Shown here one piece after another: positions 11,864 through 18,373 of a stretch of DNA of 64,000 nucleotides. This stretch comes from a virus. Position 1 is the stretch's first letter. Every line of letters starts with the position of its first letter. The DNA is taken from the IMG/VR virus record IMGVR_UViG_3300007712_000002, positions 1 through 64,000 of that record. One strand, written 5' to 3'. A program made the translations under genes and the position numbers. The notes beneath the pieces are model-generated. The model made no database searches. It was not told the DNA's origin and saw nothing but the letters and a program-made list of their open reading frames with translations.

Positions 11864-14308
11864 ATGGCTACACTAGTATCACCAGGCGTTGACGTAACAG
11901 TTGTTGACGAAAGCGCATATGCCAGCCCGGGTTCTGGCACAATTCCTCTAGTCATTGTTGCTACAGCACAAGACAAGACAGATCCAACAGGAACAGAAAC
12001 TGATGGCATCGCAAAATACACAAAGGCAGCTAATGCCAATCTTGTTGTTCCAGTAACATCACAGAGAGAACTAACCCAATTTTTCGGAGACCCGACCTTT
12101 GCAGCCACTGAAGGTGCAGAGACAAGCGAATATGGTCTCCTAGCTGCATACAGTTATCTAGGACAAGGCTCACAAGCATACGTTGTCCGTGCAGACGTTG
12201 ACCTTGCAGGACTTGAATCAAGCGAAACAGCACCAACTGGACCAGCAAATGGCAACCAGTTTTGGCTAGACACTGACGCTAGCTCATATGGTATCCACGT
12301 TTGGAGCGGCTCAGCATGGGTCCTACAAACTGTAACCGTTGAGGTTGATCTTGCCGCTGCCAGCGGTGAAGTTTCTGACCCTAAGTCATATACACCATCA
12401 ACCACCGTGGGCGCAGCAGGAGACTTCCTAGTTGCCGTGCTAAGTGATGGCTCAACTGGATTTGCAATTGGTTATTTCTATAGTGACGGTTCAGCATGGG
12501 AAAGTGTTGACACAGCAAACATTGCTGACCTAGCAGCCACAGCAGTAACATATGCTCCACACTATAGCAGCCCATCATCACCAGCAGCAGACGACATTTG
12601 GGTCAAGACTACGTCACCAGGTAATGGTGTTAATCTTGTCATCTATCAGTCAAATAGCCTGGGTGTTTTCAGCCTTGTTGAGGTTGAAGGTGTTTCAAAC
12701 GACGGCGGCACAACTTACGTCGCACAAGATGGAACAAGCGCAACAGACATCATTAATGACATGACCGATGGTAATATTGCACTCAACTTTACAGCCGCAA
12801 ATGCTGGTTTTGAGATCGAAGAAGTTGATACCACAGCCAGTGCGATTGCTGAAGAAGTATATGCACAGGCAGCTGAGCCAACTGGAGATCCAGTTGCAGG
12901 AACATATTGGTATGATCCAACTGTTACAGATCTTGATCTTTACATCAATGACGGAACAGATTGGCTACGTATTGATTCAGCAGACGTAACATACTCAACA
13001 ATAGAGCCAACTTCACCAAGCACAGACGACATTTGGGTTGAAACAGATGGAACAGAAGCTGAATATCCCAAGCTTTACCGTTATGATGGTTCAAACTGGT
13101 TGCTATATGACAACACAGACCAAACCACAGACCGTGGTGTATTGTTCGCTGACTTCACAGCAGACAGCACAATCACAGCAGGTGCCGCACACGATTCAAA
13201 CAGCACTGACTTTGATTCAGCACCAGATGAAGCACTATACCCAACCAACATGCTAGCTGTCAACATGGCGCTGTCAAGCGGAACAGTTCGTGTATGGACT
13301 GAAGGCGTTTCAATCAACGGTGGAGCATCAACTGTTGATGCTTGGACCAATGCTGCCGCAAATAATGCCAATGGCAGCGGCGTGTTTAGTCGTTTGGCAC
13401 AACGTAAAGTTATTGCAACAGCAATGCAAGCAGCAGTAGCAGGTAACGAAGATCTACGTGATCCAAATCGTAACTTCACCCTACTTGCGGCTCCAAACTT
13501 CCCAGAACTAACAGACGAGTTGGTAACGCTTAACAGCGACCGTGGCGAAACAGGATTTATCATTATTGATACTCCAATGCGTCTCACACCAACAGAAGCT
13601 GTTAACTGGGTCCAAGGCACTGGCGCAACAGAAAACGGTGATGAAGGTCTTGTTACAAAGAACACCTACAGTGCGGTTTATTACCCAGCTGGGCGTTCAA
13701 CAACACCAGCCGGAACCACAGTAACCGTTCCAGCAAGTCACATGGTGCTCTACACCTACGCATACAACGACAACATCAGCTATCCATGGTTTGCTCCAGC
13801 AGGCTTGACGCGTGGTGTCGTGCAGAACGGTAGCGCAGTTGGTTACATCACAACAGAAGAAGAATTCAAGGCAGTATCACTTAGCCAAGGCCAGCGTGAC
13901 GCACTATACTTGAACAAGATGAACCCAATTGCTCAATTCCCTCTAGAGGGTGTAGTTGTGTTTGGTCAGAAGACCCTGCATTCAACCAGCAGCGCATTGG
14001 ATCGAGTCAACGTAGCACGTCTCGTTGCTTACCTACGTGAGCGTTTCGACGAGATTGCACGTCCGCTGCTCTTTGAACAGAACGACACATTGACACGTCA
14101 ACGTGCCGTCCAATTGTTCGAAAGCTTCCTAAGCGACTTGCTAACCAAGAGAGCACTCACTGACTTTGCGGTTGTATGTGACGAATCAAACAATACACCG
14201 ATTCGAATCGACCGCAACGAACTATATATTGACGTAGCAATTGCTCCGACCAAGGCGGTGGAATTCATCTACATTCCAATCCGTATTGTCAACACCGGCG
14301 CTCTATAA
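11864..14308 (+). CDS. 18: Tail sheath protein gp18, 814 aa
   Basis: The N-terminus (L-V-S-P-G-V-D-V-T-V-V-D-E-S) and C-terminus (N-P-I-A-Q-F-P-L-E-G-V-V-V-F-G-Q-K-T-L, then L-V-A-Y-L-R-E-R-F-D-E, and I-A-P-T-K-A-V-E-F-I at the end) are classic contractile sheath signatures. The sheath contracts to drive the tube through the envelope. The protein is longer than T4 gp18 (659 aa). The extra sequence (residues about 120-430) holds four repeats of about 35 residues with pattern P...P-x-x-x-D-x-W-x-x-T...L-Y-x-Y-D-G-S-x-W, probably a decorated surface domain. Behind a late promoter. Confidence 0.95.
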   Translation: MATLVSPGVDVTVVDESAYASPGSGTIPLVIVATAQDKTDPTGTETDGIAKYTKAANANLVVPVTSQRELTQFFGDPTFAATEGAETSEYGLLAAYSYLGQGSQAYVVRADVDLAGLESSETAPTGPANGNQFWLDTDASSYGIHVWSGSAWVLQTVTVEVDLAAASGEVSDPKSYTPSTTVGAAGDFLVAVLSDGSTGFAIGYFYSDGSAWESVDTANIADLAATAVTYAPHYSSPSSPAADDIWVKTTSPGNGVNLVIYQSNSLGVFSLVEVEGVSNDGGTTYVAQDGTSATDIINDMTDGNIALNFTAANAGFEIEEVDTTASAIAEEVYAQAAEPTGDPVAGTYWYDPTVTDLDLYINDGTDWLRIDSADVTYSTIEPTSPSTDDIWVETDGTEAEYPKLYRYDGSNWLLYDNTDQTTDRGVLFADFTADSTITAGAAHDSNSTDFDSAPDEALYPTNMLAVNMALSSGTVRVWTEGVSINGGASTVDAWTNAAANNANGSGVFSRLAQRKVIATAMQAAVAGNEDLRDPNRNFTLLAAPNFPELTDELVTLNSDRGETGFIIIDTPMRLTPTEAVNWVQGTGATENGDEGLVTKNTYSAVYYPAGRSTTPAGTTVTVPASHMVLYTYAYNDNISYPWFAPAGLTRGVVQNGSAVGYITTEEEFKAVSLSQGQRDALYLNKMNPIAQFPLEGVVVFGQKTLHSTSSALDRVNVARLVAYLRERFDEIARPLLFEQNDTLTRQRAVQLFESFLSDLLTKRALTDFAVVCDESNNTPIRIDRNELYIDVAIAPTKAVEFIYIPIRIVNTGAL

Positions 14309-14325
14309 TATACGTTGATAATTAT

Positions 14326-14333
14326 GATAAATA
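14326..14333 (+). promoter_or_regulatory. Late promoter (GATAAATA) for the ExbB/ExbD-like operon
   Basis: GATAAATAAG directly after gene 18; the predicted start is near 14339, inside a strong hairpin. Confidence 0.7.
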
Positions 14334-14334
14334 A

Positions 14335-14365
14335 GTGGGGCAAGGTGGAAACACTTTTGCCCCAC
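14335..14365 (+). terminator. Strong hairpin after gene 18
   Basis: Nine-base arms GTGGGGCAA (14335-14343) and TTGCCCCAC (14357-14365) enclose an inner GTG-GAAA-CAC tetraloop stem. There is no long U-run, so it may be a terminator for gene 18, an mRNA end-protector or a leader structure. Confidence 0.5.
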
Positions 14366-14384
14366 AATCATTAAGGATAAATTA

Positions 14385-14837
14385 ATGAATATGAAATTTT
14401 GGAAGTTTTGGACAGTATTAATATTGACAGTGTTTGTATTAGCAACAGGCCAATATTACCTTGGATTGTTTGACTTCATTCTAAATTATGATCAAACCTA
14501 CCTAACATTCGTTAACCTAGGCATTGCGGCGGTGGCCCACATCTTAATGATTCGTATGCATTGGCGAAAATCATATGAAGAATACGAACACAAAATGGTT
14601 CGTTATATGGGCGAAACCACTGTTTCGATTGGTCTCGTCGGTACATTGATTGGATTTATGATCGTTCTTTGGAGTGTGTTTGGGCCTGGGGTTGTATTAG
14701 ATCCAGCAGATACTGTTGCAATGACACAAGCTCTAACCAGTATGGCAAGCGGAATGGCAGCAGCATTGATTACATCTCTTAGTGGTATTATACTATCAGC
14801 GTTGATTAATTTTCAGTTAGTGATACTTGAAGAATGA
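14385..14837 (+). CDS. ExbB/TolQ/MotA-like proton-channel subunit, 150 aa
   Basis: Four hydrophobic segments (about 9-29, 40-57, 82-100, 117-147). The third contains G-L-V-G-T-L-I-G, the same pattern as the ExbB pore helix G-L-F-G-T-V-W-G. The fourth, S-G-M-A-A-A-L-I-T-S-L-S-G, mirrors ExbB P-G-I-A-E-A-L-L-A-T-A-I-G. The pore threonines correspond to T87 and T130. It is smaller than bacterial ExbB (about 240 aa), lacking most of the cytoplasmic domain. Overlaps the ExbD-like gene by four bases. Probably forms a proton-driven channel in the host inner membrane late in infection; purpose unknown. Confidence 0.75.
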   Translation: MNMKFWKFWTVLILTVFVLATGQYYLGLFDFILNYDQTYLTFVNLGIAAVAHILMIRMHWRKSYEEYEHKMVRYMGETTVSIGLVGTLIGFMIVLWSVFGPGVVLDPADTVAMTQALTSMASGMAAALITSLSGIILSALINFQLVILEE

Positions 14838-15445
14838 CATCAGGAACTCTTAGATTAGCATTTTTGGATTTGGTATTCAACTTGTTGTTGGGTATTACGT
14901 TGATGTTTATTCTTGCCTTTCTCATGATCAATCCACCAACCCAAGGCGGACAAATTGATCCTCCCATACGCTTCATGGTCGAAATGGAATGGGATGATGA
15001 AAGTTATGTTGATATTGATCTTTGGGTCCAAGGCAAAGACAGGGATTGGGTTGGGTTTACTCGTATGGATGGTAGTTATTTTGTTCTAGAGCGAGATGAC
15101 CGCGGCACACAAAATGATACTATCATGGTTGATGGTGAGCAAGTGGTAATATCACGCAATTATGAAAATATCCGTTTCACAATTTTGCCTCCAGGTGAAT
15201 ATTTTGTAAATGTTCATTATTATAGCATTACAGGACCAACAGAAGACATCACAATTAATTTGACCATGCTGAATCCGTTCCGCAGTGTGTTTACAGACAC
15301 GGTTACGCTTGACCCTAGTCAAGAGACAACAGTGGTGTCATTCATCGTCGGACAGGATGGAAAGATCACGGACTTAAGAACAAATGTTCAGGTGAGAAGA
15401 AATACGCTTCCGCCTTCAATGAGCGATGGGAATGACGAATGGTAA
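14834..15445 (+). CDS. ExbD/TolR/MotB-like single-TM protein, 203 aa
   Basis: One N-terminal membrane helix with L-A-F-L-D-L-V-F-N-L-L-L-G. This is the ExbD/TolR pattern (P-x-x-D-V-x-L-V-L-L) with the proton-carrying aspartate at D12. The periplasmic part begins with F-M-V-E-M-E-W, then Y-V-D-I-D-L-W-V-Q-G, resembling beta-sandwich domains with a D-x-D-L-W-V motif. It continues with I-L-P-P-G-E-Y-F-V-N-V-H-Y-Y. Likely partner of the upstream ExbB-like gene (ATGA overlap). The periplasmic domain is not the usual TolR/OmpA-type peptidoglycan binder, so the target differs. Confidence 0.7.
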   Translation: MTSGTLRLAFLDLVFNLLLGITLMFILAFLMINPPTQGGQIDPPIRFMVEMEWDDESYVDIDLWVQGKDRDWVGFTRMDGSYFVLERDDRGTQNDTIMVDGEQVVISRNYENIRFTILPPGEYFVNVHYYSITGPTEDITINLTMLNPFRSVFTDTVTLDPSQETTVVSFIVGQDGKITDLRTNVQVRRNTLPPSMSDGNDEW

Positions 15446-15864
15446 CAATATTAACTCTCATAGGCATATTAACTGCATTGCTTGTTTCTTTTCTGGCTTA
15501 CTGGTCACCAGCACATTGGTTTTTAAAATCTATCGCGTTGATGTGTTTTCTTATGATCGGAGTAGTCGCTTATGAGCTCTTCGTAAGGCAAATGGGGGCG
15601 CCAATACAAGCCAAACCCCAAGGTGAATATGCCTATGTTTGGCATGAGATAACAAACAAGCCATCAATTATACTCTGGGCGATCAACGACAGAGGTCACC
15701 GCTTGTATGAATACCCATACAGTCGTGAAGAAGCTGCAATGCTGGAAGAAATTAGAGAAGCCAGGAAGGATGGTCAACCACCACAGTGGTTGACATATGA
15801 TCAGCCAGAAGGCGAAGATGATCAACTCATGGTCTTACCCCACCATAATATAATCAAGCCATAA
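15439..15864 (+). CDS. Membrane protein, third gene of the ExbBD-like operon, 141 aa
   Basis: Two N-terminal membrane helices (about 3-22 and 29-50) followed by a soluble domain with Y-V-W-H-E-I-T-N-K-P-S-I-I-L-W-A-I and an acidic C-terminus. Overlaps the ExbD-like stop by seven bases, so its production is coupled. No known family recognised. Its conserved position suggests it works with the channel pair. The operon ends at a strong hairpin just after this gene. Confidence 0.6.
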   Translation: MVTILTLIGILTALLVSFLAYWSPAHWFLKSIALMCFLMIGVVAYELFVRQMGAPIQAKPQGEYAYVWHEITNKPSIILWAINDRGHRLYEYPYSREEAAMLEEIREARKDGQPPQWLTYDQPEGEDDQLMVLPHHNIIKP

Positions 15865-15866
15865 GT

Positions 15867-15900
15867 GAAGCCGCTCAATAAATTGAGCGGCTTCAAGTTT
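15867..15900. terminator. Strong hairpin, likely bidirectional terminator
   Basis: Arms GAAGCCGCTCAAT and ATTGAGCGGCTTC (13 bases, perfect) with a two-base loop, followed by AAGTTT on the + strand. It ends the membrane operon and could also end the minus-strand transcript coming from 16.18 kb. Confidence 0.6.
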
Positions 15901-16078
15901 ACACTAGTGCAAAGCGTTTGCTACAGCTAATTGAGGATGGCATCACCGAAAAGCGAAAGTCTCAACGGCCGTAGTTACGAAACAATGCATATACCGGGCG
16001 ATGGTCTAATACGGTTTCTATCGCCCCTCAGCCCCGTCCTCCAGCCTTATCTGGCCGTGGTCCACGAGTTTCTAGTGC
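15901..16078 (-). other. Gene-poor stretch, probable structured minus-strand RNA
   Basis: No convincing protein gene in either direction. It lies downstream of a minus-strand promoter and microgene and upstream of the hairpin at 15.87-15.90 kb. Several stems are possible, for example GGGCGAT/ATCGCCC around 15.99-16.03 kb. It may be the 3' part of a small structured RNA; no tRNA, tmRNA or known RNA family is recognised. Confidence 0.3.
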
Positions 16079-16168
16079 TTAGAGAAAGAGAACGCCGTAA
16101 GTGTTGACAAAATCAGTTACAAACAGCGTAGAACCGATAACAAGATTTTCAAGAGTCATAAACATCAT
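16079..16168 (-). CDS. Microprotein, 29 aa, on the minus strand
   Basis: ATG-ATG start at 16168 lies five bases from an AAGGAA ribosome site, which itself follows a near-perfect minus-strand promoter (TTGACA-N17-TATAGT). The product is a 29-residue hydrophobic peptide (M-M-F-M-T-L-E-N-L-V-I-G...F-V-T-D-F-V-N-T-Y-G-V-L-F-L), possibly membrane-associated. It is too small for homology. The combination of promoter, ribosome site and open frame is the evidence. It is antisense to the gene 18-19 interval, which is otherwise transcribed rightward. Confidence 0.5.
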   Translation of the reverse strand: MMFMTLENLVIGSTLFVTDFVNTYGVLFL

Positions 16169-16191
16169 TCAGTTTCCTTCTTTATAGTTAT

Positions 16192-16220
16192 ACTATATAG
16201 TAAGACGTTTTGGCTGTCAA
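16192..16220 (-). promoter_or_regulatory. Sigma70-type promoter on the minus strand
   Basis: On the minus strand TTGACA (16215-16220), 17-base spacer, TATAGT (16192-16197). Predicted start near 16185, followed by AAGGAA and the microgene. Confidence 0.7.
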
Positions 16221-16238
16221 GGAAAATTTTCTCTAGAT

Positions 16239-16246
16239 GATAAATA
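16239..16246 (+). promoter_or_regulatory. Late promoter (GATAAATA) for gene 19
   Basis: GATAAATACT, 34 bases before the gp19 ATG, which has a GAGGAGATA ribosome site. Confidence 0.75.
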
Positions 16247-16280: not shown

Positions 16281-16889
16281 ATGGCAGTTCTTGACAAGCT
16301 AAGTGTCCCAGTAAACGGCGAAAGCCAAGGTACACTGATGCCAAAACTACAATACCGCTTCCGCGTTAACTTCATCAACATGGGTGCAGGCGACACAAAA
16401 GTTGCAACAAACAACGTTGTCAGCGTCACACGTCCGAACCTTACACATGATGAAGTTCTAGTGGACACATACAACTCACGTATCTACCTAGCTGGTAAGC
16501 ACTCCTGGGAGCCTGTAACCATCGAGCTACGTGACGACATTACATCAGCAACTTCAGCACTACTTGACCAACAAGTTGCGAAGCAGATCGATATGGCAAA
16601 CCAGAGCTCACCACAGGCCGGTATTAGCTATAAATTCCAGTGTCAAATTGAAAACTTGAATGGTGCTAACCCAGATCCAGTCCCGCTAGACACATGGGTT
16701 TTGAGCGGTGCATATATTTCAAACCTAACATACAATGAGACCAACTACGGCAGTGGTGGTGAATACCAGACCATTTCAGTGCAGCTACGCTATGACAACG
16801 CACAACACTTTGTTGGTGCAATTGACAACCTTAGCGATCCAAACTTTAGCGTTGAGACTGTCACACAAGCGAACGCAACAGGTTCATAA
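16281..16889 (+). CDS. 19: Tail tube protein gp19, 202 aa
   Basis: Size and pattern fit the T4/cyanophage tail tube. Features are a Y-R-F-R-V-N-F-I-N-M-G strand, V-S-V-T-R-P-N-L-T-H-D-E-V (tube-domain loop), W-E-P-V-T-I-E-L-R-D-D and W-V-L-S-G-A-Y-I-S-N-L-T-Y. Tube subunits stack as hexamers inside the sheath and carry DNA at injection. Own late promoter and a classic terminator right after it, consistent with high-level single-gene expression. Confidence 0.9.
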   Translation: MAVLDKLSVPVNGESQGTLMPKLQYRFRVNFINMGAGDTKVATNNVVSVTRPNLTHDEVLVDTYNSRIYLAGKHSWEPVTIELRDDITSATSALLDQQVAKQIDMANQSSPQAGISYKFQCQIENLNGANPDPVPLDTWVLSGAYISNLTYNETNYGSGGEYQTISVQLRYDNAQHFVGAIDNLSDPNFSVETVTQANATGS

Positions 16890-17896: not shown

Positions 17897-18373
17897 ATGT
17901 CGACGTATCAGCAAGGCAATTATCAGCCTAAAAACACAGAAAAATATGTTGGAAAGCACATTCCCAAATACCGATCGGGTTGGGAACTTCATTTTATGCG
18001 TATGTGCGACAATCATCCCAACATCCTGGCTTGGGCTAGTGAAAGCCACCGTATACCTTATATCAATCCAATAACTGGAAAAAAGAGCAATTATGTCCCA
18101 GACTTCTTTGTGATCTATGTAGACAAGGAAGGCAAAAAACATGCTGAATTGGTTGAAGTAAAACCCAGTAGTCATATGGTAGGCAACGCAAAAGGACAAT
18201 ATGATCAAGCCATGGCTGTTATCAATGAAGCCAAATGGAATTATGCCAGACAGTGGTGTAGGCAACAGGGTATTGGATTTCGCATCATTACAGAAAAAGA
18301 AATCTTCAACAAACCACAAAAGCCACGCAGTCAGCGCAAGCCCAAGATGCCAAAAAAGAGAGCTCGTAAATGA
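17897..18373 (+). CDS. 4: Head completion protein gp4, 158 aa
   Basis: Starts Y-Q-Q-G-N-Y-Q-P-K-N-T-E-K-Y-V-G-K, then I-P-K-Y-R-S-G-W-E-L-H-F-M-R-M-C-D, V-P-D-F-F-V-I-Y-V-D and L-V-E-V-K-P. This is the layout of T4 gp4(50), a head completion protein with a TnsA/PD-(D/E)XK-like fold (E in W-E-L, D in P-D-F, E-V-K). It is thought to finish the head vertex after packaging. The predicted mRNA start coincides with this ATG. Stop overlaps the next start. Confidence 0.85.
   Translation: MSTYQQGNYQPKNTEKYVGKHIPKYRSGWELHFMRMCDNHPNILAWASESHRIPYINPITGKKSNYVPDFFVIYVDKEGKKHAELVEVKPSSHMVGNAKGQYDQAMAVINEAKWNYARQWCRQQGIGFRIITEKEIFNKPQKPRSQRKPKMPKKRARK

Follow-up and report, generated by a model that had tools for sequence, protein, structure and literature searches.

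Why would a phage carry, between the genes for its tail sheath and tail tube, three genes that resemble an ion-driven membrane motor, and what could they do there? Motors of the MotA/ExbB type are cellular machines that serve motility, import, envelope stability and defence. The locus lies in a stretch of 64,000 nucleotides (hereafter the window; positions 1 to 64,000 of the 92.5-kb viral record IMGVR_UViG_3300007712_000002) that is part of a T4-type contractile-tail phage, whose nearest terminase matches, at 50-53% identity, come from large phages, PA5oct and Atu_ph07 among them. An earlier note on this DNA had described the locus as an ExbB/ExbD-like proton channel operon.

The three overlapping ORFs that the earlier note had placed between sheath and tube, here called A, B and C, were recovered at 14385-15864 (Table 1). 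A and B overlap by 4 bases and B and C by 7 bases, which suggests that the three genes are translationally coupled. All three are under purifying selection, with pN of 0.17-0.39 versus pS of 0.66-0.85 within the clade. The hairpins said to bound the operon were also found, both with strongly negative z-scores. The upstream one is a putative 5′ end of the cassette transcript or a putative terminator of the sheath gene; in relatives L005, L007 and L010 the equivalent site also forms a G/C-rich stem, though its sequence differs. Hairpins comparable to the downstream one occur in L007 and L010, and none was seen in L005 or L006.

Table 1. Positions of the cassette genes, their flanking genes and candidate control elements in the window
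Feature	Position	Strand	Description
Tail sheath gene	11864-14308		PHROG E 2e-201
GATAAATA	14326..14333	+	T4-type late-promoter-like element, ~50 bases 5′ of gene A
Stem-loop	14335..14365	+	gap between sheath gene and gene A; -22.2 kcal/mol, z -4.7
Gene A	14385..14837	+	150 aa; predicted four-helix channel subunit, MotA/TolQ/ExbB/ZorA superfamily
Gene B	14834..15445	+	203 aa; single-helix subunit, invariant D12, predicted all-beta periplasmic domain
Gene C	15439..15864	+	141 aa; two membrane helices and a small domain, probably periplasmic
Stem-loop	15866..15895	+	cassette end, terminator-like; -22.3 kcal/mol, z -6.0, 13-bp stem
Tail tube gene	16281-16889		PHROG E 2e-46

The claim that the cassette has its own late promoter held in part. 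The motif GATAAATA occurs 9 times in the window versus 2.4 expected, none of 100 shuffles reached 9, and a second copy lies at 16239, ahead of the tube gene. However, the motif was not kept in all relatives: L006 has GATAAATA and L007 has AATAAATA, but it is absent from L005 and L010. Because it is missing in some relatives, we regard GATAAATA at 14326 as no more than a likely promoter of the cassette. Further GATAAATA sites include 22581, 25906, 40889 and 62084. Apparently, this phage has GATAAATA as its late-promoter-like element and not the T4 consensus TATAAATA, which showed no enrichment. The ~340 bases that separate gene C from the tube gene (15900-16240) contain no long ORF, Rfam match or unusual folding, and neither Rfam families nor tRNAs were found within the window. 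A gene for a TnsA-like endonuclease (17897-18373; PF08722, E 3e-21) lies in the structural gene region and is conserved in relatives L101-L105.

Gene A encodes four hydrophobic helices, a MotA-like number rather than three, with a very short cytoplasmic loop; ~20 residues separate helices 2 and 3, and the protein stops at the fourth helix. Its score against PF01618 (21.0 bits) falls below the Pfam curated cutoff of 22.9, which its bacterial orthologues clear with 25-41 bits. In five of five genomes the MotA_ExbB model independently selected the gene beside B, at 27-35 bits and above the cutoff. In addition, a profile of the A family matches the structures of ZorA, MotA, TolQ and PomA, and ZorA ranks first for gene A in PADLOC. 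On these profile comparisons, A belongs to the MotA/TolQ/ExbB/ZorA superfamily, and its nearest relatives appear to be ZorA and MotA.

To judge conservation, we used 83 dereplicated cassettes, a set restricted to loci with all three genes. The glycines of the pore motif in A are nearly constant (G83 in 81, G86 in 82 and G90 in 80 cassettes), and the pore column of the fourth helix is T or S in 82. The two pore threonines of the earlier note were borne out for the first position, T87, whereas the second is occupied in the window by a conservative serine, S131, with T130 adjacent to it. T87 itself is mostly kept among the homologues, being T in 70 of the 83 cassettes and K, N or A in the remaining 13.

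Gene B encodes one N-terminal membrane helix with D12 in its first half. The aspartate that the earlier note had pointed out is invariant across all 83 cassettes, diverse as they are, as are W53, D60, D62, L85, R87, D88, D89, G91 and E111; the invariant acidic cluster looks like a metal or ligand site. The sequence of the helix, F-x-D-L-L-F-N, is one that we take to be reminiscent of MotB. In the AF2 model (pLDDT 88.9), the helix spans residues 3-32 and is followed by 11 strands with essentially no further helix. The periplasmic domain had been called unfamiliar; PDB fold searches gave no match at E<=0.001 for B or C. In a viral fold library the two yielded a single match, to a Cellulophaga phage protein of 713 aa with no known function. 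Pfam matches to B (Y_Y_Y, PPC and DUF2135) were all below cutoff and merely hint at a beta domain.

The assignment of B to ExbD/TolR, in contrast, survived only in the single N-terminal helix with its aspartate. The ExbD model PF02472 did not match B in its own genome, and among the 36 ExbD/TolR places that it found in five bacterial genomes the B locus never appeared. When B was aligned to ExbD by hhalign, the aspartates were in register but the alignment was non-significant (P=0.04, probability 1.3%), and ExbD structures were not among the fold matches listed for B. The miss by PF02472, together with a predicted periplasmic domain that is all-beta and not alpha/beta, rules out ExbD, and on this profile and model evidence B is not an ExbD. 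The label ExbB/ExbD is too narrow for the pair, with B failing the ExbD model and A nearest to ZorA and MotA. In its broad form, the proton-channel reading stands: the superfamily of A and the invariant D12 of B lead to an ion-driven channel-motor, a reading of the A/B sequences that we consider well supported.

Gene C has two membrane helices and a small beta-beta-beta-alpha-beta domain (AF2 pLDDT 85.5). As the earlier note had it, C belongs to no known family: nothing in Pfam, PHROG, NCBIfam or the PDB fold search matched it. In 54 of the 83 cassettes a lysine is conserved in the short loop that joins its helices, which under the positive-inside rule places the domain probably in the periplasm. 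None of the three genes is covered by a PHROG, NCBIfam or PADLOC family, and OmpA or Zor models matched neither B nor C. A known effector domain, a peptidoglycan-binding domain and a TonB-like protein are all absent from the cassette.

A search for the three-gene set revealed a widespread conserved system, which the earlier note had not anticipated, in numerous unrelated phages and in a number of bacterial chromosomes. Although tblastn of A against cultured phages gave no match, the search with B alone led to Rhizobium phages. B matched 27 cultured Rhizobium and Sinorhizobium phages (E<1e-5), including 16-3 and its relatives, the 68-kb RHph_N3_19 group, Pootjesviridae (P10VF, RL2RES and RHph_I1_9) and RHph_I1_18; the B homologues in all 27 are annotated as hypothetical, and every phage examined carries A-B-C. 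Profile scans with B reached at least 80 bacterial and at least 80 viral loci. Among the matches listed, B is preceded by A and followed by C in 172 of 177 loci, a tally in which one contig is counted a few times over, and A and B overlap or lie within 30 bases of each other in 94%. Five loci deviate, and in four of them B sits at or near a contig end. The hosts of the cassette include temperate and large lytic-type phages, and its positions vary, as would be expected of an accessory module.

Two further features were observed at the phage loci. Homing-type endonuclease genes, HNH or Seg-like by annotation except that the one in L006 was judged by sequence, lie beside or inside A-B-C in several phages (L006:4340-5989, L017:5505-6047 and L018:4201-4959), a pattern that would fit frequent targeting of the cassette. 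Directly upstream of A, phages of the 16-3-type clade encode a trypsin-like protease whose N-terminus resembles a signal peptide or that of a lipoprotein (L011:5223-6122; also L016, L017, L018, L162, L167, L171, L172, L173 and L175); the protease is a possible fourth partner of the cassette.

The location of the cassette bears on two roles that the earlier note had considered. Its position between sheath and tube, with a late-type promoter motif, would fit a virion component that energizes or gates DNA entry. This site, however, is limited to the phage clade of the window; elsewhere the cassette adjoins DNA polymerase, exonuclease, topoisomerase/late-sigma or terminase genes or follows the trypsin-like protease, or it resides in bacterial chromosomes without tails, and polytopic membrane proteins are unexpected in a tailed virion. 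A virion role is therefore scarcely plausible. The same late-promoter-like element, the secreted protease of the 16-3-type clade and lysozyme genes a few kb from the cassette in X2_25 and TM3_3_14B are consistent with a lysis device, in which, late in infection, the motor would disrupt or pull the outer membrane or wall and replace or time the action of spanin or holin. Most other phages place the cassette near replication genes, clamp loader included, and not near lysis genes, and in bacteria the chromosomal copy is single and syntenic, which is unlikely for a killing device. These observations disfavor lysis, and we consider it improbable.

In the SAR116 family the cassette was found in single copy in 45 of 58 mostly partial genomes and is near-universal. 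Forty-four loci share a luciferase-like gene and trpG as downstream neighbors (trpG is missing in one short contig), indicating that the cassette is vertically inherited there. Such vertical, single-copy and syntenic retention shows that the cassette is compatible with the health of its host. In Nevskiaceae the distribution is patchy (15/58). Cultured bacteria that carry a chromosomal copy include Hydrocarboniphaga effusa and Rubrivivax albus. Across the bacterial copies no consistent neighbor gene was found, and no link to defense islands was seen beyond isolated matches to defense models. The seven matching Azospirillum megaplasmids each have two B homologues that are not annotated as genes in the tables consulted (e.g., NZ_CP012915.1:986030-986575).

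The near-universal single copy in SAR116 fits a physiological rather than a defense role, and the architecture of a periplasm-directed motor driven by the proton motive force (PMF) would suit Tol- or Ton-like support, in which a phage PMF transducer would stabilize the outer membrane or import a nutrient during infection. However, genes for TonB/TolA-like proteins, Pal-like proteins or receptors are not linked to the cassette, its bacterial neighbors vary, and the same bacteria already own ExbBD/TolQR. On balance we find this explanation rather unlikely.

In a tree of 79 B sequences, bacteria appear at three separate places (SAR116; one deltaproteobacterium; a gamma/beta/PS1 group), all amid phage sequences, and a single bacterial clade was rejected by the AU test (p 1.3e-7). 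The B of the window falls in an all-phage group. Because the tree is unrooted and sampling started from a phage sequence, we call a phage origin of the cassette plausible and go no further. It is possible, and we suggest it with reserve, that A-B-C is a family of its own among ion-driven envelope motors that diversified mainly in phages, entered bacterial chromosomes at least three times and became a fixed part of the cell in SAR116.

The closeness of A to ZorA in the PADLOC and PDB searches could also reflect an anti-defense decoy, with A (and B) poisoning the Zorya or Tol/Ton motors of the host through mixed assembly. Yet A never occurs without a B and a C of its own, on both of which selection is purifying, the invariant D12 suggests an ion pathway of its own, and cellular copies exist by themselves; we regard a decoy as very improbable. 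The cassette instead probably encodes a motor of the MotA/ExbB/ZorA type that is driven by ions and seated in the inner membrane of the host, with periplasmic output; as its role we favor, tentatively, conditioning of the envelope of the infected cell. Its stoichiometry, ion flow, topology and force output we infer largely by analogy. Five A subunits would ring the helices of two B subunits, and the path of protons (or Na+) would run through D12 of B and the Thr/Ser-lined helices of A. Because A is almost without a cytoplasmic domain, the output would have to be periplasmic. The two beta-domains of B may act on some part of the envelope by pulling, twisting or clamping it, and C may be the membrane-anchored partner. 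In the phage setting, such conditioning might guard against another incoming phage, for instance, or against damage, and we tentatively propose superinfection exclusion or envelope protection as the role.

Among known systems, ExbB/TolQ (PF01618) belong to the same superfamily as A, but A differs in its four helices and in lacking a large cytoplasmic domain. The helix of ExbD/TolR (PF02472) likewise has an Asp after a short N-terminus, whereas the periplasmic domain there is alpha/beta and that of B is predicted to be all-beta, and no TonB/TolA gene lies by the cassette. Four-helix A shares aligned GxxGTxxG and TTxxGL motifs with MotA; the torque-generating cytoplasmic loop, OmpA domain and flagellar link of MotA/MotB stators are all absent. 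Zorya (PDB 8vvn, 8vvi, 8qyd family; PMC11890865) resembles the cassette in that A aligns to the pore helices of ZorA (E 9e-6 to 2e-5), in the single-helix partner with an ion-carrying Asp and in its reading as an ion-driven motor. In contrast to gene A, with 150 aa and no tail, ZorA has 430-730 aa and a long cytoplasmic tail; ZorB has an OmpA/Pal-type peptidoglycan-binding domain that B lacks, and Zorya has ZorC/D/E effectors whereas the cassette has none and C is new. The TolQ-like/vWA transpore-helix pairs (PMC12204202) likewise combine a MotA/ExbB-family gene with a non-ExbD single-helix Asp protein bearing another periplasmic domain, but that domain is vWA there and beta-sandwich-like in B, and the cassette adds C and a phage distribution. 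A diversity survey of generic ion transporters (PMC12505986) is also among the closest descriptions. In the open-access literature we found no description of a phage-encoded ExbB/ExbD, MotA-type or comparable motor, and within that literature the A-B-C kit is so far undescribed. A conserved motor in many unrelated phages that has its own periplasmic domain and a third subunit would add a branch to the MotA/ExbB family and would give viruses a novel means of acting on the host envelope. Proteins so far labeled hypothetical in well-studied phages, Rhizobium phage 16-3 among them, gain names and testable residues, and in SAR116, an abundant marine lineage, the cassette suggests a near-universal envelope system not yet described.
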